A stretch of 12,888 nt of DNA, from the NCBI GenBank assembly GCA_016209155.1, contig JACQWU010000205.1:1-12888 (forward strand), read 5' to 3'. A program made the translations under genes and the position numbers. The notes under the pieces are model-generated. The model searched no databases, was not told the DNA's origin, and worked only from the letters and a program-made list of their open reading frames with translations. The DNA is from Candidatus Desantisiibacteriota bacterium (GTDB lineage Bacteria > JACRDZ01). Positions 1,382 to 12,888 of this stretch are shown piece by piece; position 1 is the stretch's first letter, and each line of letters begins with the position of its first letter.

Positions 1382-2183
1382 TCATATATTCTTCATTATT
1401 ATTCCTTCTAAAAGTTCACTTTCGCTAACAATAAGTGATTTTAATGACAATTTATTCATAATTAAAACACAAATAAGTGATCCGGCTAAAATGACGTCAC
1501 TTCTTGCCGGTTGAATTCCTTTCATAAGCTTTATTTGCTCTGGCGTTTTTGCTCTAATTTCTTCGTGCAGGGCTATTATTTTTTCAATAGAAATTTCATA
1601 TTTATGTACTTTATCAGGATCATAAGGACTGAGTTTTTGCGCCATAGCGGCAAGAGTGGTAACTGTTCCTGCAACTCCAACCAGAGTTTTTCCTTGTAAT
1701 TCTAAATTAGAGGGAATAAAATTTAAAGAATATTCTATTGCATGTTTGATATTAGAATATTCATCGCTTGATATAGGGAAACGACTTATAAAGCTTTCAG
1801 TCATACGCACACTTCCAATATTTATACTGAATATTTGTAAGGTTTTTTTTTGTTTTTCTATTATAAATTCAGTGCTTCCTCCTCCAATATTTAAATCTAC
1901 GAGCAAAAATTTCACGATTTTGAGCATCTCGTACAGCGCTTGTTGCAATTATATTAATATTATCTACTTCAAAAGAATTAATAATTTTTTTATATTCTTT
2001 TAATTTATTTATACATCGATCAATTGCTTTTAAATTAAGATTTTTATTTTTATCAACCCCTTCACCGAGACGTACAATATCAACCTGCTTTAATAAAGTT
2101 TTAAGTTTCATGTTATTATCGTATATTTCAGCAATTAAAAGACGGACAGAATTAGTCCCTATATCAATTGATGCTCGTATCAT
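1382..2183 (-). pseudogene. Ppx/GppA exopolyphosphatase-family gene, internal deletion and frameshift
   Basis: Two minus-strand frames together make one Ppx/GppA phosphatase. The N-terminal part starts at ATG 2183 (RBS AAGGAG) and has the ASIDIGTNSVRLLIAE phosphate-loop motif, RLGEGVD and IATSAVRDAQNRE. The C-terminal part, in another frame, resumes at LLVD..IGGGSTEF and runs through the family's VGVAGTVTTLAAMA segment to a normal end. The join is near 1900-1910. Intact relatives have roughly 40 residues between NR-E and the VDIGGGS strand, including the SGxEEAR motif with an important Glu; those codons are missing here. Two extra residues (LN) also sit inside the VD-IGGGS strand. Together the pieces give about 265 residues against the usual 300 or so. 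Loss of the EEAR region plus the frameshift makes activity unlikely. An assembly or sequencing error could explain a frameshift but not easily a 40-codon loss. Confidence 0.8.
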
Positions 2184-2205
2184 ATTTCTCCTTATTAATG
2201 AAGAA

Positions 2206-2340
2206 CCTCGCAGCAAGCTGCGAGGTATCTTCGGTCTCTCTTCGGAATTCTTTATTATTTATTTTAGTGCCAATTCATCCCTGCCTTAAAAGGCTTACGT
2301 ATTAATGGCACTTCCAGATAAAATGGGACCAAAGCTTTGG
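2206..2340. repeat. Cluster of short palindromes resembling a decayed REP / IS200-associated element
   Basis: Four inverted repeats occur within 135 bp. CCTCGCAGC/GCTGCGAGG (2206-2225) is perfect with 9-bp arms and 2 central bases. AGTGCCA/TGGCACT forms outer arms at 2266-2272 and 2306-2312. A 12-bp palindrome GCCTTAAAAGGC (2283-2294) is nested inside them, and another palindrome CCAAAGCTTTGG lies at 2329-2340. The CGCAGCAAGCTGCG core and the CAATTCATCCCTGCC segment resemble REP sequences found near IS200-like transposase genes in other bacteria, as I recall. No transposase is present. The element lies between the 64-residue gene and the Ppx/GppA remnant and could also attenuate transcription between them. 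Confidence 0.45.
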
Positions 2341-3984: not shown

Positions 3985-5811
3985 ATGCAAGACAATAATA
4001 AAATGCTGTTTGAATTTTCTGATACTATAGCCGGTTATGTAACTAAATTTGAAAAGGGTAAAAACAGCTTTGATTTAAAAACCACAGACGGCCGGGAATT
4101 TTCAGTAAAACTTACCTCTAATACCTTTGCCCGCAGTGCCCGAAATCTTGATGAACCTTATATGGATGCAACAGGATTAATTTCTGAACTTTTGATTCCG
4201 GGACAATATCTTTTTGCTTATGGTATTTTTTACCCTCAAAAAGGTGCGCATGTATTTGAGGCTAAAATCCTTGATTTCCCCGGTAAAAAACTCGGAAAAT
4301 ACAGATTTGAAGAGCCTGACTGGTGGATAAAACAAGCAAGATCTATTGCTGACTTTTTTATCCGGGCGCAATTTAAAAGCGCTGATACTATTGATTATGC
4401 TAATTATAGAACATCAATTTCATTAACAGGAGCGCAAAAAGGAGATTATCGTCAGGAGACAGATACAATATCACGACTTATATATGGTCTGGCTTCCACA
4501 TTTTTACTGACAGGTGAAGATCGGTTTCTGGAAGCGGCTGAAAAAGGAACTCAATATTTACGTGATCACATGAGATTTTATGATCTGGATGAAAATATTA
4601 TCTACTGGTATCACGGTATTAATGTTAAAGGCGGCCGTGAACATAAAATATTTGCTTCAGAATTTGGAGATGATTATGATGCAATTCCAATGTATGAACA
4701 AATTTATGCTCTTGCCGGACCAACTCAGACATATAGAATAACAGGTGATCCTGCTATCATGAAAGATATTAAAATGACAATAGATTTATTTGACAGATTC
4801 TTTCTGGATAAAAAAGGTGAAGGATATTTTTCTCATATAGATCCTGTTACTCTTGATCCAAGAAGTGATACGCTTGGTCATAATAAAGCGCGTAAAAATT
4901 GGAATTCCGTTGGAGATCATGCGCCTGCTTATTTAATTAACCTTTGGCTTGCAACAGGTAATCCCAGATATAAAGATTTTCTTGCTTATACCGCAGACTG
5001 CATTGTTAATCACTTCCCTGATTATGAAAATAGTCCTTTTGTTAATGAACGCTTTTTTGAAGATTGGAGTCATGATCAATCATGGGGCTGGCAAAAGAAT
5101 CAGGCAGTAGTCGGACATAATTTAAAAATTGCATGGAATTTAATGCGAATAAATAGTCTTGCTCCTAATGAAAAATATGTTGCGCTTGCAAAAAAAATTG
5201 CCGAAGTTATGCCTAAAACCGGAATGGATGTTCAGCGGGGAGGCTGGTATGATGTAATGGAAAGGACATTAAGTAACGGAGAAGAATTCCATCGTTTTTC
5301 ATGGCATGATCGTAAAGCATGGTGGCAGCAGGAGCAAGGGATACTTGCCTATCAAATTTTGTTTGGAATTCTACGAAATGAAGAATACCTGAAGCTGGCC
5401 AGGGAATCAGCGGCATTTTATAATTCATATTTTCTGGATTACGAAGATGGTGCAGTATATTTTAATGTTCTTAATAATGGTTTGCCTTTTTTACTCGGAA
5501 CAGAACGGATGAAAGGCAGTCATTCAATGAGCGCGTATCATTCTGTTGAACTGGCTTATCTTTCAACTGTATATATTAACCTTTTGCATACCAGACAGCC
5601 TATGGATCTGTATTTTAAACCGCTTGTAAATGGTTTTGCTAACGATGTGTTAAGAGTTCAACCTGATATTCTTCCGCCGGGAAGTATAAAAATATCAGAA
5701 GTGACAGTTGATGGTAATCCATGGAAAAATTTTGATGCCGCCAAACTTACAGTTGAATTGCCTAATCTGAATTATCGTCCAAAAATTAAAGTAAGGATAG
5801 TTTCGGTATAA
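3985..5811 (+). CDS. AGE (N-acylglucosamine 2-epimerase) fold protein, icfG-cluster type (Slr1855-like)
   Basis: This 608-residue protein has three parts. Residues 1-100 look all-beta and OB-like (IAGYVTKF, FDLKTTDG, YLFAYGIFYP). Residues about 110-540 match the (alpha/alpha)6 barrel of N-acylglucosamine 2-epimerase / cellobiose 2-epimerase enzymes. The last 60 or so residues form a beta tail (IKISEVTVDGNPW). Barrel landmarks are GDHAPAYLINLWLATG (H312), WQKNQAVVGHNLKIAW (H378), DRKAWWQQEQGILA (W446, W447, E450) and SHSMSAYHSVELAYL (H513, H519). These resemble the catalytic histidines and aromatic floor of the family, so sugar epimerisation or isomerisation is plausible, but the substrate is unknown. 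The start has a full AAGGAGG site. It is the first gene of the operon, 59 nt before a STAS gene. Its length, about 200 more than simple AGE epimerases, comes from the terminal extensions. Confidence 0.75.
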   Translation: MQDNNKMLFEFSDTIAGYVTKFEKGKNSFDLKTTDGREFSVKLTSNTFARSARNLDEPYMDATGLISELLIPGQYLFAYGIFYPQKGAHVFEAKILDFPGKKLGKYRFEEPDWWIKQARSIADFFIRAQFKSADTIDYANYRTSISLTGAQKGDYRQETDTISRLIYGLASTFLLTGEDRFLEAAEKGTQYLRDHMRFYDLDENIIYWYHGINVKGGREHKIFASEFGDDYDAIPMYEQIYALAGPTQTYRITGDPAIMKDIKMTIDLFDRFFLDKKGEGYFSHIDPVTLDPRSDTLGHNKARKNWNSVGDHAPAYLINLWLATGNPRYKDFLAYTADCIVNHFPDYENSPFVNERFFEDWSHDQSWGWQKNQAVVGHNLKIAWNLMRINSLAPNEKYVALAKKIAEVMPKTGMDVQRGGWYDVMERTLSNGEEFHRFSWHDRKAWWQQEQGILAYQILFGILRNEEYLKLARESAAFYNSYFLDYEDGAVYFNVLNNGLPFLLGTERMKGSHSMSAYHSVELAYLSTVYINLLHTRQPMDLYFKPLVNGFANDVLRVQPDILPPGSIKISEVTVDGNPWKNFDAAKLTVELPNLNYRPKIKVRIVSV

Positions 5812-5817
5812 TATTAA

Positions 5818-5838
5818 TTTTGAGTTTTGAATTTTGAA
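5818..5838 (+). repeat. Three tandem copies of TTTTGA(G/A)
   Basis: Three 7-bp units TTTTGAG, TTTTGAA, TTTTGAA follow directly after the stop of the AGE-like gene. The TTTGAA-rich composition is shared with the spacers at 6218-6251 and 12801-12817. Confidence 0.5.
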
Positions 5839-5870
5839 TTCCGGCTTGCTCGGATTATGGAGGTGCTATT

Positions 5871-6212
5871 ATGGAAATAAAAACAGACATTCAGGAAAAC
5901 ACAAAAATTATTATGATTTCCGGTTCTTTAGACGGTAAAACTGCTCCGGAGGCTCAGGAAAAAATTATACCTCTTATCGAACCTGACAATATACTTGTTG
6001 TGGATCTTAGTAATTGTAAATATGTTTCAAGTGCAGGATTACGCCTCCTTTTAATGATTGCAAAACAAGTTCCTTCCAAAAACTGCAAATTATTTCTTAC
6101 AGGTCTTACTGAAGAAGTGAAAGATGTTATGGATATGACCGGATTCAGTAATTTTTTTAAAATATACGGTACAGTCAAAGAAGCTTGCGATATGGGGGCA
6201 AGCTGCACATAA
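5871..6212 (+). CDS. STAS-domain anti-sigma factor antagonist (first copy)
   Basis: This 113-residue single-domain STAS protein belongs to the SpoIIAA/RsbV family. Such proteins bind the cognate kinase/anti-sigma factor when unphosphorylated and are switched off by phosphorylation of one Ser. The motif VVDLSNCKYVSSAGLRLLL (residues 43-61) is diagnostic; S54, directly before AG, aligns with the phosphorylated Ser of RsbV/SpoIIAA, and S53 is next to it. The C-terminal half, with a DVMDMTGFSNFF segment, is normal for the family. A strong GGAGGTG lies before the ATG. It sits between the AGE-like gene and the GlgX gene, the same place as slr1856 in the Synechocystis icfG cluster (recalled). The likely phosphorylating partner is the kinase at 8767. 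The C-terminal tail ends DMGASCT and shows nothing unusual. Confidence 0.9.
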   Translation: MEIKTDIQENTKIIMISGSLDGKTAPEAQEKIIPLIEPDNILVVDLSNCKYVSSAGLRLLLMIAKQVPSKNCKLFLTGLTEEVKDVMDMTGFSNFFKIYGTVKEACDMGASCT

Positions 6213-6217
6213 ACAAA

Positions 6218-6251
6218 AAATTTGAAATTTGAGATTTGAGATTTCAAATTT
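6218..6251. repeat. Inverted repeat AAATTTGAAAT / ATTTCAAATTT in spacer
   Basis: Perfect 11-bp arms (6218-6228 and 6241-6251) flank a 12-nt loop TTGAGATTTGAG, in the gap between the first STAS gene and glgX. Its segment 6221-6237 is identical to 12801-12817 in another spacer of the same operon. No T-run follows, and the stem is almost all A:T. It looks like a dispersed spacer repeat rather than a terminator. Confidence 0.55.
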
Positions 6252-6267
6252 GATAATTGGAGTCAAT

Positions 6268-8379
6268 ATGCAAAGAATAGATGCTCATTCAACTCACAAA
6301 TATGGAGATTTTAAACTGCGCATCGGGAAACCTCTTCCTTTTGGCGCAACAATCGTTCCGGGTGGTGTTAATTTTTCAGTATATTCAAGTTATGCTACTT
6401 CATGTGAACTTCTTCTTTTTAATAAACATGAAACTAATCCTTTCGGTATTATTCCTTTTACCAATGATTTCAGAATTGGGAATGTTTTTACCATGGTTGT
6501 GTTTGATATAGATTATGAAAATATAGAATATGGTTACCGTATGGATGGACCTTTTGATCCCGGATCAGGTCATCGTTTTGATAAAACAAAAATTTTAATG
6601 GATCCATATGCAAAACTAATCGGAGGCAGAGATATATTTGGAGAAAAACCTGATTGGGATGATCCTTATCAGCATAGAGCACGTATACTTTATGATGATT
6701 TTGACTGGGAGAATGATCACCCGCTTGAAACCCCTGTTGAAGATCTGGTTATATATGAAATGCATGTTCGAGGTTTTACAAAACACAAATCATCAAAAGT
6801 CAAATACCCCGGCACGTTTGCTGCAATTCGTGAAAAAATTCCATATTTAAAAGAACTTAAAATAAACTGTGTGGAATTAATGCCTATTCATGAATTCGAT
6901 GAATTTGAAAATTCGCGTATATCCCCTGTCACGGGACAGATGCTTTTAAATTACTGGGGTTATAGTAATCTTGGTTATTTTGCCCCAAAAGCAGGGCTGG
7001 CGGCAACAGGTAAATATGGAATGCAGGCAGATGAATTAAAAGCGCTGATAAAAGATTTACATAAAAATAATATAGAAGTAATTCTTGACGTGGTTTTTAA
7101 TCATACTGCTGAAGGAAATGAAAAAGGTCCGTATATTTCTTATCGCGGTATAGATAATAAAACTTATTACATGTTAACACCTGAAGGTTATTACTATAAT
7201 TTCAGCGGGTGCGGAAACACATTAAACTGCAATAATCCTATTACTCGAAATATGATTCTCGATTGTTTAAGATACTGGGCAACCGATTATCATATTGACG
7301 GATTCCGTTTTGATCTTGCATCTATTCTCGGAAGAAATCAGGACGGAGCGCCAATGCACAGTCCGCCTCTTTTAGAAGTACTTGCATTTGATCCAATACT
7401 CGCAAAATGTAAATTAATTGCTGAAGCATGGGATGCAGGCGGACTTTATCAGGTAGGATCTTTTCCATCATGGGGACGCTGGGCAGAATGGAATGGTAAA
7501 TATAGAGATGATTTACGTAAATTTCTAAAAGGGAATGGTTCTTCCGGTGCTATGTCTCAGCGGTTACAGGGGTCTCCCGATCTTTATCAATGGCAGCAGA
7601 GAGGTGCCTGTGCTTCTATTAATTTTATTACTGCTCATGATGGATTTACTTTAATGGATTTAGTTTCTTATAACGGGAAACATAATGAAGCAAACGGTGA
7701 AAACAACAATGATGGCGGGAATGACAATGACAGCTGGAACTGCGGTTTTGAAGGAGAAACAGATGATCCAAACATTGCAAATCTTCGCAAAAAACAGATA
7801 AAAAATGCAGTAACCATGCTTTTGATAAGCCAGGGTACTCCAATGATTCTTTCGGGTGATGAAATGGGAAATACACAATGGGGAAATAATAATGCCTACT
7901 GTCAGGATAATGAGATATCCTGGCTTGACTGGAATATGACGGAAAAAAATTCTGAGCTTTTAAACTATTTTAAAAAAATGATTGCTTTTCGTCATAAACA
8001 TCCGGTTTTGCGCAGTAATACTCATTTTAGAAATTATGATTATGCCGGCAGCGGTTATCCTGATATTTCCTGGCATGGGACAAAAGCCTGGTACACAGAC
8101 TGGAGTAATAATTCAATTTTAGCGTTTTTATTATGCGGGAAACATGCAAAACAGGGAAAAGTGCAGGATAATTATTTTTATGCAGCTATGAATATGCACT
8201 GGGAAATGCATGGTTTTGAACTTCCCAAACTTCCCGTAAATATGTCATGGTATGTTTTTGCTAATACTGATGTTGCTCCCCCATTTGATATTTGTGAACC
8301 CGGGCAGGAATATTTGATGGAGAATCAAAATGAATTTTTAGTAGGACCAAGATCAATTATAATATTAATCGGTAAATAA
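6268..8379 (+). CDS. glgX: Glycogen debranching enzyme GlgX / isoamylase type (GH13)
   Basis: This 703-residue protein of the GlgX/isoamylase branch of GH13 hydrolyses alpha-1,6 branch linkages of glycogen or limit dextrins. A CBM48-like beta domain (about residues 15-130; GKPLPFGATIVPGGVNFSVYS) precedes the catalytic barrel. All four conserved regions are present: DVVFNHT (D274), DGFRFDLAS (nucleophile D349), IAEAWDAGG (acid/base E386) and FITAHDGFT (H457, D458). KHNEANGENNNDGGNDNDSWNCG is the Asn/Asp-rich segment typical of GlgX. Length is normal. ATG 6268 is chosen because TTGGAG lies just before it; an in-frame ATG at 6229 falls inside the spacer inverted repeat and lacks an RBS. No glycogen synthase or phosphorylase gene is nearby. 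Instead the gene is bracketed by two STAS genes, as slr1857 is in the icfG cluster (recalled). This suggests glycogen breakdown is tied to the switch. Confidence 0.93.
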   Translation: MQRIDAHSTHKYGDFKLRIGKPLPFGATIVPGGVNFSVYSSYATSCELLLFNKHETNPFGIIPFTNDFRIGNVFTMVVFDIDYENIEYGYRMDGPFDPGSGHRFDKTKILMDPYAKLIGGRDIFGEKPDWDDPYQHRARILYDDFDWENDHPLETPVEDLVIYEMHVRGFTKHKSSKVKYPGTFAAIREKIPYLKELKINCVELMPIHEFDEFENSRISPVTGQMLLNYWGYSNLGYFAPKAGLAATGKYGMQADELKALIKDLHKNNIEVILDVVFNHTAEGNEKGPYISYRGIDNKTYYMLTPEGYYYNFSGCGNTLNCNNPITRNMILDCLRYWATDYHIDGFRFDLASILGRNQDGAPMHSPPLLEVLAFDPILAKCKLIAEAWDAGGLYQVGSFPSWGRWAEWNGKYRDDLRKFLKGNGSSGAMSQRLQGSPDLYQWQQRGACASINFITAHDGFTLMDLVSYNGKHNEANGENNNDGGNDNDSWNCGFEGETDDPNIANLRKKQIKNAVTMLLISQGTPMILSGDEMGNTQWGNNNAYCQDNEISWLDWNMTEKNSELLNYFKKMIAFRHKHPVLRSNTHFRNYDYAGSGYPDISWHGTKAWYTDWSNNSILAFLLCGKHAKQGKVQDNYFYAAMNMHWEMHGFELPKLPVNMSWYVFANTDVAPPFDICEPGQEYLMENQNEFLVGPRSIIILIGK

Positions 8380-8418
8380 TTTAATTATTTAACAATAAAT
8401 TAAGGAGGGGAAATAATT

Positions 8419-8733
8419 ATGAGTTCAAATATTTCAGTTTTAATTGAGAATGGAATTGCAAAAATCGATTTAAACGAAAGATTGGATGCTTCAAATGCTC
8501 CTGCTTTCCAGGAAGAGATGAAAAAAATCATCGGACAAAATATTACAAGCATAGTTTTTAATTCTCAAAAGCTTGAATATATTTCCAGCGCAGGATTAAG
8601 AGTAATAATTTTTGCAAAACAAAAATTAGGGGAAGATGCAAAAATTTATATGATTGGGGCAAAAGACGTGGTTTTAAATGTTTTAAAAATGAGCGGATTG
8701 GATAATTTTATGATTTTGCAGGATACATTTTAA
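8419..8733 (+). CDS. STAS-domain anti-sigma factor antagonist (second copy)
   Basis: This 104-residue STAS protein is paralogous to the one at 5871 but clearly diverged. The motif KLEYISSAGLRVIIFA (residues 51-66) carries S57 at the phosphorylation position with S56 beside it; VLKMSGLDNFM is the usual C-terminal helix region. The ATG has a very strong AAGGAGGGG site. It directly precedes the kinase gene (33-nt gap), the standard antagonist-kinase pairing of SpoIIAA/SpoIIAB and RsbV/RsbW operons. It corresponds in position to slr1859 of the icfG cluster (recalled). In that cluster a PP2C phosphatase gene lies between this gene and the kinase; here nothing does. Confidence 0.92.
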   Translation: MSSNISVLIENGIAKIDLNERLDASNAPAFQEEMKKIIGQNITSIVFNSQKLEYISSAGLRVIIFAKQKLGEDAKIYMIGAKDVVLNVLKMSGLDNFMILQDTF

Positions 8734-8766
8734 AGAATAAGAAACTTTAATTTAAGGATTATTACT

Positions 8767-9168
8767 TTGGAAAAAATAATCTATTCGGCAGAATTAGATA
8801 AATTAGATTTAATGATTCAATTTATTTTTGACGGTGCTAAAAAAGTTGGATTTGATGATGCTGCTTTAAATCAGATTCATCTTGCTTCGGAAGAAGTCTT
8901 GATTAATATCATAAACTACGCATATCCTGATAAACCGGGGGATATCGAAATAAGTTATGAAATTGAAAATGGACAGATTATAATTGAAATTTCAGATTCC
9001 GGTCTGCCTTTTGATCCTTTGAAAAAACCCGATCCCGATATTACCTTATCTCTGGAAGAGAGAGATATTGGAGGATTAGGTATATTCCTGACAAAAAAAA
9101 TCATGAACGAAGTCATTTACAGAAGAGAAAATAACAAAAATATTTTAACTATGATTAAATGTAAATAA
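8767..9168 (+). CDS. RsbW/SpoIIAB-type serine kinase, possible anti-sigma factor (Slr1861-like)
   Basis: This 133-residue GHKL ATPase belongs to the HATPase_c_2 / anti-sigma kinase family. It shows the N-box EEVLINIINYAYP (E43, N47), the G1 box ISDSGLPFDP (D77, G79) and the G2 box GGLGIFLTKKIMNEV (residues 102-116). Such proteins phosphorylate a STAS antagonist on Ser; many also hold a sigma factor or another target. The start is TTG at 8767 with AAGGA eight bases upstream; no ATG gives a complete N-terminus. The TTG start and modest RBS contrast with the strong site of the preceding STAS gene and would favour antagonist over kinase in translation. Candidate substrates are the STAS proteins at 5871 and 8419. 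No sigma factor and no SpoIIE/PP2C phosphatase is encoded within the window. Confidence 0.9.
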   Translation: MEKIIYSAELDKLDLMIQFIFDGAKKVGFDDAALNQIHLASEEVLINIINYAYPDKPGDIEISYEIENGQIIIEISDSGLPFDPLKKPDPDITLSLEERDIGGLGIFLTKKIMNEVIYRRENNKNILTMIKCK

Positions 9169-9181
9169 ATAGGAGATAATA

Positions 9182-10006
9182 ATGAAAAAAATTTTAACCA
9201 TTCTTTCAAATTTCGGATATTGGGGTGTTGAACTGACCGGACCTATGGTTAAACTTGAAGAGGCAGGATACCAGTTGACTTTTGCAACTCCTAAGGGAGA
9301 TCGGGCAGCAGCATTACCTCCCACCTATGATACAAATTATTTTGATCCGCCTTTGGGAATAAATGTAACAACTGCTTTTGATGCCAATCAGGTAATTTCG
9401 ATTAAAGATAGTCCAAAACTGGATAATCCGATAAATATTTCCAAATGGATACCTGAACGCCCTTATTTCAGCTTGGAAAAATTTATTCGTGAACGGGAAA
9501 AATATTTTAAAACTGTTAAAGAAAAACAAAAAGAAATGATAAAAGAGTATGCAGGGCTTCTTCTTGTAGGCGGCAGCGGACCGATAATTGATATGGTAAA
9601 TAATCAACGTGTACATGATATTATTCTTGGTTTTTATAAGGCAGACCTTCCTATAGCTGCAATATGTTATGGGGTTGCCGCCCTTGCATTTGCGCGGGAT
9701 TTTAATGAAAGAATTCCTATTATTAAAGGTAAACATGTTACAGGCCACTGCATAGAGTATGATTACCATGATGGCACAGGATTCGTAGGTACCGATCTTA
9801 ATATAGGACCTCCTCCGTACTGTCTTGAATATATATTGAGAGATGCAGTAGGTCCAAAAGGTCAATACCATGGAAATTTCGGAAAAGAAACCTCTGTGAT
9901 TCTGGATTATCCGTTTTTAACTGCAAGATCTCTTCAATGCGCTCATGAATTTGGAGAACAATTTGTGAATATGCTGGATAAAGGATTAAAAAGATATGGC
10001 TGGTAA
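9182..10006 (+). CDS. DJ-1/PfpI superfamily protein, Hsp31-like length
   Basis: This 274-residue class I glutamine-amidotransferase-like protein contains GVELTGPMVKLEEAGY (residues 15-30; E17 at the conserved Glu), AGLLLVGGSGPIIDM (124-138) and AAICYGVAAL (159-168) with nucleophile-elbow C162. An inserted charged segment (about 85-122, SLEKFIREREKYFK and following) makes it nearly as long as Hsp31/HchA-type members rather than the 170-190 residues of simple PfpI. Members of this superfamily act as glyoxalase III, chaperone or hydrolase-like enzymes; which applies here is not visible. It follows the kinase gene by 13 nt with an AGGAGA site, so it is almost certainly co-transcribed with the partner switch. 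It is one of two DJ-1-type genes in the operon. Confidence 0.85.
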   Translation: MKKILTILSNFGYWGVELTGPMVKLEEAGYQLTFATPKGDRAAALPPTYDTNYFDPPLGINVTTAFDANQVISIKDSPKLDNPINISKWIPERPYFSLEKFIREREKYFKTVKEKQKEMIKEYAGLLLVGGSGPIIDMVNNQRVHDIILGFYKADLPIAAICYGVAALAFARDFNERIPIIKGKHVTGHCIEYDYHDGTGFVGTDLNIGPPPYCLEYILRDAVGPKGQYHGNFGKETSVILDYPFLTARSLQCAHEFGEQFVNMLDKGLKRYGW

Positions 10007-10030: not shown

Positions 10031-11737
10031 ATGAATAAAAAAACGGGACGATTTGCAATAATTGAACAGTTTATTGCTGACGGGATTACCAGAATGTTCG
10101 GTAATCCCGGAACTGTTGAGCAAGGCTTTCTTGATGCATTAAATGATTATCCCGAGATGAAATATATACTTACTCTGCAAGAGAGTATTGCTGTTTTAAT
10201 GGCAGACGGTTATGCCAGAGCGACTCATAAACCTGCGCTTGTTCAGCTTCACAGTTCTCCCGGTATCGGGAACGCGGTTGGAGCTCTGTATCAGGCCAAA
10301 AGAGGTCATGCTCCGCTGGTTGTGATCGGCGGAGATTCGGGAGTCCGGTATATGAATATGGATGCACAAATGGCGGGTGATTTAGTTGCCATGATGGAAC
10401 CTGTAACAAAATATTCAACAATTGTATTTGATCACAGGTCTTTGCTCAGAACTTTGAGAAGGGCTATAAAAATAGCCTCTACCCCGCCTATGGGACCGGT
10501 TTATGTATGTCTTCCGCAGGATATTCTGGATATGGAATGTGTAGAGGAAATCCGTCCGACTTCTATTCCCTCAACCCGTGTTCTGCCAGACCCTGAATTA
10601 ATTGATCAAGCGGCAAAATATCTGCTTGGATCAAAGAATCCAATAATTTATTTTGGGGATGGCATCAGTTATTCGGATGCTCAGGATGAGCTTAAAACCA
10701 TTGCAGAACTACTCGGTGCAAAATTATACGGAGTTGATACCGGTGATTTTAATATTGATACAACACATCCTCTTTATATGGGAACAACCGGTCATATGTT
10801 CGGTTCTGCAAGTTTATCCATATTAAAAGAAGGAGATGTAAATCTTATTGCAGGTACATATATGGTTCCGGAAGTATTCCCTGAACTGGGAGAAATTTAT
10901 AATGAGAATGCTAAAATCATTCATTTTGATCTTAATGGATATGAAATCGCAAAAAATCACAGAGTAGATCTGGGTGTTGTAAGTGATCCTAAATTATCTC
11001 TGTCAGCTCTTTTAAATGTTTTAAAATTAAAAATAACAGATGATTTTAATAAAAAAGCTCATGAAAGATTTATTAATATAAAAACTGAAAAAGAAATAAA
11101 ATTTAAAAATATTTTAGAAAATCATAAAAAATCAGAAAATATGGTACCACTTCATATGTCACAATTTGCAAAAGTTTTAGCAAAAAAAATTCCTTCTGAT
11201 ACTGTTATATTTGATGAAGCATTAACAAGTTCTCCGGATCTTACAACATATATTCCGCCGCAATTATCCGGTAGTTATTTTAGTACCAGAGGAGGATCTC
11301 TGGGTGTCGGAATTCCGGGCGCAATCGGAGTAAAAACAGCCAATCCGGAAAAAACCGTAATAGGCTTTACCGGAGACGGAGGCTCAATGTATACAATTCA
11401 GGCATTATGGTCATCCGCACGTCATAATATTGGTGCGAAATTTGTAATATGTAATAACGGATCATACAGATTACTTCAACTTAATATAAATCAGTATTGG
11501 AAAGAAAATAATATCAAACCGCATATTCATCCTATGTGCTTTGATTTATCAAGACCATCCATTGATTTTGCCGCACTGGCAAAATCAATGGGTGTTAATG
11601 CTGTCAGAGTTGAAAAAGTCAATCAGATAGAGTCAGCAATAAATATAATGTTATCTGATGACAGGCCTTTTTTAATTGATCTTGTGCTTGAAGGTGATAT
11701 TCGTCCTGAATTAATAGGAGTGAAATGCGGACAATAG
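10031..11737 (+). CDS. ThDP-dependent enzyme, benzoylformate decarboxylase / acetolactate synthase-like
   Basis: This 568-residue protein has the three-domain ThDP decarboxylase/synthase layout. The N-terminal Pyr domain has FGNPGTVEQGFLDAL (23-37), LTLQESIAVLMADGYAR (48-63) with cofactor-activating E51, and QLHSSPGIGNAVGAL (72-86) with H74 aligned to the active-site His of benzoylformate decarboxylase. The C-terminal PP domain has GDGGSMYTIQAL (448-459) ending in NN 475-476, the Mg/ThDP motif, and STRGGSLGVGIPGAIGV (418-434). The GNPG loop and HSSPGIGNA favour a benzoylformate-decarboxylase-like 2-oxo acid lyase over acetolactate synthase, and no small regulatory subunit gene adjoins it. However, Thr28 replaces the Ser of benzoylformate decarboxylase, and no His is evident where its second active-site His would fall (TYMVPEVF, 276-283). 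The substrate is therefore open. RBS AAGGTGA; 24-nt gap from the DJ-1 gene. Confidence 0.85.
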   Translation: MNKKTGRFAIIEQFIADGITRMFGNPGTVEQGFLDALNDYPEMKYILTLQESIAVLMADGYARATHKPALVQLHSSPGIGNAVGALYQAKRGHAPLVVIGGDSGVRYMNMDAQMAGDLVAMMEPVTKYSTIVFDHRSLLRTLRRAIKIASTPPMGPVYVCLPQDILDMECVEEIRPTSIPSTRVLPDPELIDQAAKYLLGSKNPIIYFGDGISYSDAQDELKTIAELLGAKLYGVDTGDFNIDTTHPLYMGTTGHMFGSASLSILKEGDVNLIAGTYMVPEVFPELGEIYNENAKIIHFDLNGYEIAKNHRVDLGVVSDPKLSLSALLNVLKLKITDDFNKKAHERFINIKTEKEIKFKNILENHKKSENMVPLHMSQFAKVLAKKIPSDTVIFDEALTSSPDLTTYIPPQLSGSYFSTRGGSLGVGIPGAIGVKTANPEKTVIGFTGDGGSMYTIQALWSSARHNIGAKFVICNNGSYRLLQLNINQYWKENNIKPHIHPMCFDLSRPSIDFAALAKSMGVNAVRVEKVNQIESAINIMLSDDRPFLIDLVLEGDIRPELIGVKCGQ

Positions 11738-11758: not shown

Positions 11759-12196
11759 ATGAGGAATCTCACAGAAAATTCGATCAAAAAAATGGTAAAC
11801 GCATGGTATAAGAAACTTGATATTCATGCACCTATGGTTGAAATATTACCTATGCTTTCAAATGAAGACAGTCTCCATATGGTATTTCCGGAAGTATCAA
11901 TAAATGGACTGGCTGCTTTTGAATCCTGGTATCAGTCTGTAATAAGAATTTTTTTTTATGAATCTCATAAGGTAAAAGAAATAAAAAGCAAAATTAACGG
12001 AAATGAAGCTGAAATCAAAATAGTTGTTGAATGGAAAGCAAGCCGATGGAAACCTCCTGCAGGATATAGTGATAGAATCAAACTTGATGCATATCAGACA
12101 TGGCATGTGAAATGGTCTTTTAAAACGAACAGTCCGGTTATAATAAAATATATAGTAGATGAGCTGAAATATCATGAAGGTTCATCCCGTCTTTGA
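11759..12196 (+). CDS. NTF2-like / SnoaL-fold small protein, function unknown
   Basis: This 145-residue soluble protein begins with a helical stretch (TENSIKKMVNAWYKKLD). Alternating strands follow (DSLHMVFPEVSINGLAAFESWYQSV, AEIKIVVEWKASRWK, DAYQTWHVKWSF, PVIIKYIVDELKYHEG). This is the pattern of the NTF2/SnoaL/ketosteroid-isomerase cone fold, in which a hydrophobic pocket binds or converts a small molecule. The MVFPEV...GLAAFESWY segment resembles the family's common 'G.e.i..f' region. It is rich in Trp. No cysteines and no signal peptide are seen. It lies 21 nt after the ThDP gene and 21 nt before the second DJ-1 gene with its own AAGGAAA site. A catalytic role cannot be assigned. Confidence 0.65.
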   Translation: MRNLTENSIKKMVNAWYKKLDIHAPMVEILPMLSNEDSLHMVFPEVSINGLAAFESWYQSVIRIFFYESHKVKEIKSKINGNEAEIKIVVEWKASRWKPPAGYSDRIKLDAYQTWHVKWSFKTNSPVIIKYIVDELKYHEGSSRL

Positions 12197-12217: not shown

Positions 12218-12787
12218 ATGAAATTAAAAGGGAAAAAAATAGGAATTTTGTTTGAAAGTGATTTTTATGAAAATGAAATTTTTTATTATAAATTCAGATT
12301 TCCTGAAGAAGGAGCTGATTTGCATTTTTTAACCAGACTGTGGGGACAAAATCATATTACTTTTCTGGGACATGAATATAAGATTCCAGTTGACTGTAAT
12401 GAAAGTTTTGAAAAAATTACTGATGAAGAGCTGGAAACATATAGTGCCATAATAATTCCTTCGGGTATGGTTTCAGATAGACTCAGATATACTGAGGACA
12501 GTAATAAAATTCCTCCCGCGGCAGAGTTTATGAGAAGAGCTTTTAATAAAAAAAATATTCTTAAAGGTATTATTTGTCATGGTATGTGGCTTATGGCTCC
12601 TGTTATTGATGTAATAAAAGGAAGAAGAGTTGTTGTTCATAATAATCTTATATCAGATGCAAAAAATTACGGACTTCAATATATAAATGAAGATGTAGTA
12701 GTAGATAAGGATCTTATTACAGGAAGATCCGGCGGGCATTGCCACATGTTTGCAAAAAAAATAATTGAAATTCTTTCTAATGAATAA
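12218..12787 (+). CDS. DJ-1/PfpI family protein (second copy)
   Basis: This 189-residue protein of simple PfpI length contains KKIGILFESDFYENEIFYY (residues 6-24; E18 at the conserved Glu), AIIIPSGMVSDRLRY (77-91), GIICHGMWLMAP (117-128) with nucleophile C120 followed by H121, and ITGRSGGHCHMFAKKIIEIL near the end. C120-H121 with E18 is the arrangement of PfpI/YhbO-type enzymes. Family roles range from glyoxalase III and protein or nucleotide deglycation to proteolysis; the sequence does not decide. It is only distantly similar to the 274-residue DJ-1 protein at 9182, so the pair is not a recent duplication. RBS GAAAGG; same operon. Confidence 0.85.
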   Translation: MKLKGKKIGILFESDFYENEIFYYKFRFPEEGADLHFLTRLWGQNHITFLGHEYKIPVDCNESFEKITDEELETYSAIIIPSGMVSDRLRYTEDSNKIPPAAEFMRRAFNKKNILKGIICHGMWLMAPVIDVIKGRRVVVHNNLISDAKNYGLQYINEDVVVDKDLITGRSGGHCHMFAKKIIEILSNE

Positions 12788-12800
12788 AATTAATTTGGGA

Positions 12801-12817
12801 TTTGAAATTTGAGATTT
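12801..12817 (+). repeat. 17-bp repeat shared with the spacer before glgX
   Basis: TTTGAAATTTGAGATTT here is identical to 6221-6237. Both copies lie in short intergenic gaps of the same operon, shortly before the next gene's RBS. Here the inverted partner arm seen at 6241-6251 is missing. Confidence 0.55.
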
Positions 12818-12837: not shown

Positions 12838-12888
12838 ATGGCTGATAATGTATTTCATCATATCGGGCTTCCATGCAATGATCCGATA
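12838..12888 (+). CDS. Start of a VOC (glyoxalase/bleomycin-resistance fold) protein, cut by window edge
   Basis: Only 17 codons remain: ATG at 12838 with a good AGGAGG site, encoding MADNVFHHIGLPCNDPI. The HHIGLPCNDP segment matches the first beta strand of VOC proteins, where the His is a metal ligand in glyoxalase I and extradiol dioxygenases. It lies 50 nt after the second DJ-1 gene and is read in the same direction, so the operon continues to the right. The subfamily cannot be told from 17 residues. Confidence 0.6.
   Translation, partial: MADNVFHHIGLPCNDPI

Follow-up and report, generated by a model that had tools for sequence, protein, structure and literature searches.

A probable icfG-type partner-switching module with an extended enzyme set in a Desantisiibacteriota genome

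Results and discussion

The window analysed here is an entire 12,888-nt contig (JACQWU010000205.1, hereafter C120) from a Candidatus Desantisiibacteriota genome, and between positions 3985 and 9168 it carries five plus-strand genes for an AGE-fold protein, a STAS protein, the glycogen debranching enzyme GlgX, a second STAS protein and an RsbW-type kinase, in that order. Comparison of the encoded proteins indicates that this cluster is probably an icfG-type partner-switching module, orthologous to slr1854–slr1861 of Synechocystis, in a host in which no photosystem was detected and whose set of sugar and carbonyl enzymes is extended. An earlier note, made from the DNA sequence alone, had recognised the five genes and likened them to icfG; their order, coordinates and families are as it described, and the likeness holds at the protein level. 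The five core genes are:

3985–5811, plus strand: AGE-fold (GlcNAc 2-epimerase-like) enzyme, Slr1855-type, 608 amino acids (aa); GlcNAc_2-epim, 1.5e-11
5871–6212, plus strand: STAS1 (anti-anti-sigma-like), Slr1856-type, predicted phosphoacceptor Ser54; STAS, 3.5e-22
6268–8379, plus strand: GlgX glycogen debranching enzyme, Slr1857-type; TIGR02100, 701 bits, above cut-off
8419–8733, plus strand: STAS2, Slr1859-type, predicted phosphoacceptor Ser57; STAS, 1e-13
8767–9168, plus strand: RsbW/SpoIIAB-type serine kinase, Slr1861-type, with E43, N47, D77 and GGLG intact; HATPase_c_2, 5.3e-28

The start of GlgX is probably the ATG at 6268 rather than the TTG at 6229, because relatives open with MQRID and a GGAG lies upstream.

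Comparison with cyanobacterial and Bacillus systems

For the comparison with icfG we used a Synechocystis-like cyanobacterial genome, L148, whose cluster reads DJ1b-AGE-STAS1-GlgX-STAS2-SpoIIE(634 aa)-RsbW. The L148 kinase shares nine of the ten published N-terminal residues of Slr1861 (L10, L13, R38, L39, D42, E43, L44, T46 and N50; PMC12329169), and this fingerprint together with the gene order lets L148 serve as a close proxy for Synechocystis. Each of the five window proteins and its L148 counterpart are reciprocal best matches, in identical order, with identities of 62% for AGE, 39% for STAS1, 66% for GlgX, 37.5% for STAS2 and 34% for RsbW; the DJ1b protein encoded further downstream is 31% identical. 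The cluster shares with icfG of Synechocystis sp. PCC 6803 (slr1852–slr1862) the AGE-STAS-GlgX-STAS-kinase order, a linked DJ-1 protein, and the phosphoacceptor and kinase residues.

The regulators appear competent for phosphotransfer. Alignment to the known SpoIIAA motif places a serine at the phosphosite position in 62/62 STAS1 proteins (S54 in the window) and in 65/65 STAS2 proteins (S57), and the kinase residues E43, N47, D77 and glycines 103 and 105 are unchanged in all 57 relatives compared. The window kinase is also the sole stand-alone RsbW-type kinase above cut-off in the host assembly. The cluster resembles the RsbV/RsbW/RsbU and SpoIIAA/SpoIIAB/SpoIIE systems of Bacillus in the families of its kinase and STAS proteins, in the catalytic residues and in where the phosphosite lies. 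Unlike these, it has no sigma factor gene, and its two STAS proteins are set around sugar enzymes.

The predicted model of the AGE protein (predicted local distance difference test score 81, predicted template modelling score 0.87) shows an AGE barrel at about residues 100–540, preceded by an additional N-terminal β domain (residues 1–100) and followed by a C-terminal β region. Superposition on mannose isomerase, cellobiose 2-epimerase and glucose 2-epimerase gave Z scores of 28–32 with root-mean-square deviations of 3.0–3.6 over 357–382 residues. As all three enzymes scored alike, we rejected the fold as a guide to the substrate.

A gene set found in twelve phyla

The AGE protein was scanned against named genomes, and the gene models around the 80 best loci (64–78% identity) were read. 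The AGE carriers at these loci span 12 named phyla, so the survey across phyla that the earlier note had proposed did recover the set. AGE, STAS, GlgX, STAS and RsbW occur together in Omnitrophota, Elusimicrobiota, Bacillota, Bacteroidota, Cyanobacteriota, Chloroflexota, Spirochaetota, Pseudomonadota and others, and a handful of short or rearranged loci hold just part of the set. In 61 of the named loci, 6 kb or more of DNA was available downstream of AGE; within the fetched neighbourhoods of these, GlgX was present in 59, STAS2 in 56, and STAS1 and RsbW in 50 each. Clustering of the five genes far exceeds chance.

The enzymes are better conserved than the regulators, with mean pairwise identities of 66% for AGE (81 copies) and 66% for GlgX, as against 34–41% for the STAS proteins and the kinase. 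In the AGE tree, Cyanobacteriota, Bacillota, Spirochaetota and others each fall into more than one piece, which suggests horizontal transfer. The closest match in synteny comes from Contendobacter (L072/L080; L197), whose clusters have AGE through RsbW, DJ1a, the thiamine enzyme, the SnoaL-like gene, DJ1b and a glyoxalase gene in the order of the window. They differ by one more small gene before DJ1b and by a further STAS gene and a SpoIIE phosphatase gene, the latter 7.3 kb past RsbW. The Contendobacter AGE protein lies on the cyanobacterial/Chloroflexi side of the AGE tree.

The photosynthetic reaction centre family Photo_RC gave no match in the host assembly, a metagenome-assembled genome of 3.08 Mb that is 79% complete, nor in three further module-carrying hosts searched. 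This supports the suggestion, already made in the earlier note, that the set is conserved outside phototrophs. We found no description of the gene set outside cyanobacteria in the open-licence papers searched, nor any earlier report there of its breadth or of its extended enzymes.

Two features were seen near some of these clusters. A third STAS gene is present in certain loci (L064:10815-11613, L072:19764-20129), and a ParA/MinD-like ATPase gene (HSFRGGTGKSN) lies near the cluster in 10 loci, including those of Contendobacter, Chloroploca and a Nostoc-type genome (L197:14270-15025, L059:17469-18233, L077:14694-15503).

Position and class of the phosphatase

Whereas the icfG phosphatase gene lies between the second STAS gene and the kinase gene, only 33 nt separate the two genes here (STAS2 ends at 8733, RsbW starts at 8767). 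The gap holds no phosphatase, as the earlier note had observed. That note took the absence for an oddity and proposed that the phosphatase was supplied elsewhere or replaced. The gene orders of relatives do not sustain the oddity. We scored the phosphatase position in 54 loci in which STAS2 and RsbW were both seen and enough DNA was left, with counts that are approximate in that a few scored kinases are neighbouring paralogues. The slot between STAS2 and RsbW was filled in just 4/54, all heterocystous cyanobacteria (Nostoc, Tolypothrix and Calothrix types); L148 and another cyanobacterium, L149, also have this order. The usual place was after RsbW (25 loci), followed by upstream of AGE (8) and elsewhere within 8 kb (5). 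The 12 loci with none within 8 kb are an upper bound, since two of them, L007 and the Contendobacter locus L072, have a phosphatase gene 6.6 kb and 7.3 kb past RsbW, respectively, beyond the flanks first fetched.

No phosphatase gene is present in the window, and as the window is the whole contig, this means only that there is none before the contig ends. The contig stops 3.7 kb past RsbW, well short of the 7.3 kb at which the syntenic Contendobacter relative has its phosphatase, so that absence here is no evidence of loss. The apparently missing phosphatase thus mostly reflects the end of a fragment and a gene order specific to cyanobacteria.

The host assembly encodes two SpoIIE proteins, on contigs C75 and C61. 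The C75 protein is a dCache-HAMP-SpoIIE protein of the cluster class, with identities of up to 72%; along its whole length it shares 48% identity with the L008 cluster phosphatase. A tree of 75 SpoIIE domains places it inside the cluster-linked clade (support 96/95), next to near-cluster Omnitrophota copies and a copy near an Elusimicrobiota cluster. Against the L008 genome its domain matches the cluster phosphatase at 70% and the other four SpoIIE proteins at no more than 27%; for the L016 genome the values are 63% and 34–44%. Identities to the cluster phosphatases of Bacteroidota and Selenomonadaceae are 46–53%, a range that overlaps with some unlinked clostridial ones. The host search for SpoIIE/PP2C genes that the earlier note had suggested was therefore fruitful in part, yielding a phosphatase of the cluster class in a copy that is unlinked to the cluster and cut mid-domain. 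Relative to Synechocystis, the host phosphatase is thus of the Cache-HAMP-SpoIIE class and, in the assembly, lies apart from the cluster.

The C75 gene is interrupted by a 141-nt end that occurs exactly in C75 (L004:5025-5165) and in C74 (L101:5319-5459) and partially in C49 near 9127-9181, with unrelated flanks; the shared end also interrupts an HNH-like open reading frame (ORF). We read this repeated end as a putative insertion-sequence terminus. The interruption bears on the possibility that the phosphatase has truly been lost, that the broken C75 copy records a loss in progress, and that the switch is locked with its STAS proteins permanently phosphorylated. Besides the insertion-sequence-like end in C75, this finds support in the lack of any further SpoIIE protein, other than the C61 fusion, in the 79% complete assembly. 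We nevertheless consider it improbable, because the genome is not fully assembled and C120 stops short of the syntenic phosphatase position, because the kinase and STAS residues are intact, and because the C61 protein could substitute.

The C61 protein is a GAF-SpoIIE-HATPase fusion. We set it aside as a second choice for the cognate phosphatase, as it lies outside the cluster-linked clade on a long branch and has a kinase-like domain of its own. We also rejected an end-to-end join of C120 with C61 or C75, since its final 189 nt resemble a dispersed AT-rich repeat and match the end of no other contig. Elsewhere, beside a Riflebacteria cluster, lies a gene for a SpoIIE-like protein whose branch is extremely long (L069:16242-17375).

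Genes downstream of the kinase

The conserved unit does not stop at 9168. It continues on the same strand to the contig end with the following genes:

9182–10006, plus strand: DJ1a, a DJ-1/PfpI-like protein that evolves with the thiamine enzyme (partial distance correlation 0.80)
10031–11737, plus strand: thiamine-diphosphate (TPP) enzyme, benzoylformate-decarboxylase type; nearest solved relatives are benzoylformate decarboxylases, 4e-63
11759–12196, plus strand: SnoaL-like small protein, named by eye, with no Pfam match; in 7/61 long neighbourhoods
12218–12787, plus strand: DJ1b, DJ-1/PfpI-like protein; in 50/61 long neighbourhoods
12838–12888, plus strand: glyoxalase/VOC-like gene, of which the contig end leaves the first 17 codons; syntenic with the glyoxalase gene of Contendobacter

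In relatives, too, DJ-1 and thiamine-enzyme genes usually follow on from the set, and the unit therefore extends beyond what the earlier note had seen. In contrast to Synechocystis icfG, the window has DJ1b downstream, whereas the cyanobacterial counterpart lies directly upstream of AGE (the Slr1854 position), and the genes for DJ1a, the thiamine enzyme, the SnoaL-like protein and the glyoxalase are added. The thiamine enzyme falls into two classes: the window, L008, L013, L059 and L072 have the benzoylformate-decarboxylase type, whereas most other loci have a more distant one.

Proposed mechanism and target of the switch

In Synechocystis, Slr1861 is reported to phosphorylate Slr1856 and Slr1859, and IcfG to dephosphorylate Slr1856 and not Slr1859 (PMC12329169). 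In the mechanism that we propose, the RsbW-type kinase of the window would phosphorylate both STAS proteins, at S54 and S57, and a SpoIIE-type phosphatase under the control of an extracellular Cache sensor would strip the phosphate from at least one of them. The phosphatase would be retained in this design, encoded on C75, where the assembled copy is interrupted, past the contig end, or in both places. The phosphorylation state of the STAS proteins could then set the binding partner of the kinase, and the choice of partner may tune the adjacent glycogen and sugar pathway of GlgX, the AGE-fold epimerase, the thiamine enzyme, the DJ-1 proteins and the glyoxalase. We infer that the switch controls glycogen or sugar use in general.

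Several observations weigh against this assignment. The STAS and kinase regulators are just 34–39% identical to the Synechocystis-like ones, and the phosphatase on C75 is unlinked, with a catalytic domain that ends after 94 of 192 positions. AGE is patchily distributed, occurring in 13/146 cyanobacterial genomes and in none of the three other members of the phylum among the genomes searched; its function may therefore have changed with transfer. In addition, the literature searched held no biochemistry on any non-cyanobacterial copy. The absence of AGE from all three phylum mates would also fit a misbinned C120 that is foreign to the host genome. This we regard as very improbable, given that C120, one of 352 contigs, correlates in tetranucleotide make-up at r 0.97–0.99 with four further contigs from this bin and has a similar G+C content, 34% compared with 30–32%.

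What the switch acts on divides the remaining readings. In a conventional anti-sigma system, the kinase would hold a sigma factor (group 1/2 like SigC, or FliA-type), and the enzymes would be its neighbours and regulon. In Synechocystis, Slr1861 acts as an anti-SigC factor (PMC12329169), and the host has three sigma-70-like matches, one of them a 260-aa protein on C270. However, reading the recurring families of the 80 neighbourhoods revealed no recurring sigma gene family. Sigma-B/F/G was above cut-off in just one of the 19 module hosts tested; its lack in the other 18 suggests that the output is probably not sigma-B. Two Bacteroidota hosts have one match each. The host assembly itself has no sigma-B/F/G match above cut-off and the window no such gene, so that the cluster does not qualify as an RsbVW sigma-B operon. 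We hold an anti-sigma role to be a reasonable possibility, if not the expected outcome.

Alternatively, STAS1 or the kinase could bind and regulate GlgX or the AGE-fold enzyme directly, with no sigma factor. The distances of STAS1 and GlgX correlate beyond the shared AGE signal (partial correlation 0.53, above that of every other regulator-enzyme pair), the STAS1-GlgX pair is intact where Selenomonadaceae split the cluster, and sigma-B is missing from most hosts. Set against this, GlgX often lacks an accompanying STAS1 (Lachnospiraceae/Ruminococcaceae types), in one case (L027) STAS1 is present and GlgX is not, and adjacent genes that moved together would correlate too. Direct enzyme control is accordingly a tentative proposal that we think rather unlikely. 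A bolder version, which we offer as speculation and doubt, is that icfG represents the branch in cyanobacteria of a carbon-control module that is widespread, has spread by horizontal transfer and has a switch that acts directly, free of sigma factors, on an uncharacterised sugar pathway comprising the long AGE-fold enzyme, GlgX, an exchangeable thiamine enzyme, DJ-1 and glyoxalase.

The literature we found treats the icfG switch as a cyanobacterial inorganic-carbon device. Its occurrence in 12 named phyla, mostly without phototrophy or sigma-B, suggests an ancestral role in sugar or glycogen control. Many simpler hosts are now available for testing the target of the switch, such as Bacteroidota with one or two SpoIIE genes, and the substrate of the AGE-fold enzyme would name the pathway.

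Other features of the contig

Promoter and terminator scans returned no more sites than shuffled sequence. A short AT-rich repeat (AATTTGAAATTTGAGATTTGAGATTT-like) lies in the intergenic gaps of the cluster (window 5810-5835, 6219-6258 and 12792-12817) and is dispersed elsewhere in the host genome, including C228, C96, C210 and C328. Upstream of the cluster, on the minus strand, two adjoining ORFs of 188 and 115 aa (window 1382-2216) resemble, by eye, a Ppx/GppA-type phosphatase split by a frameshift.

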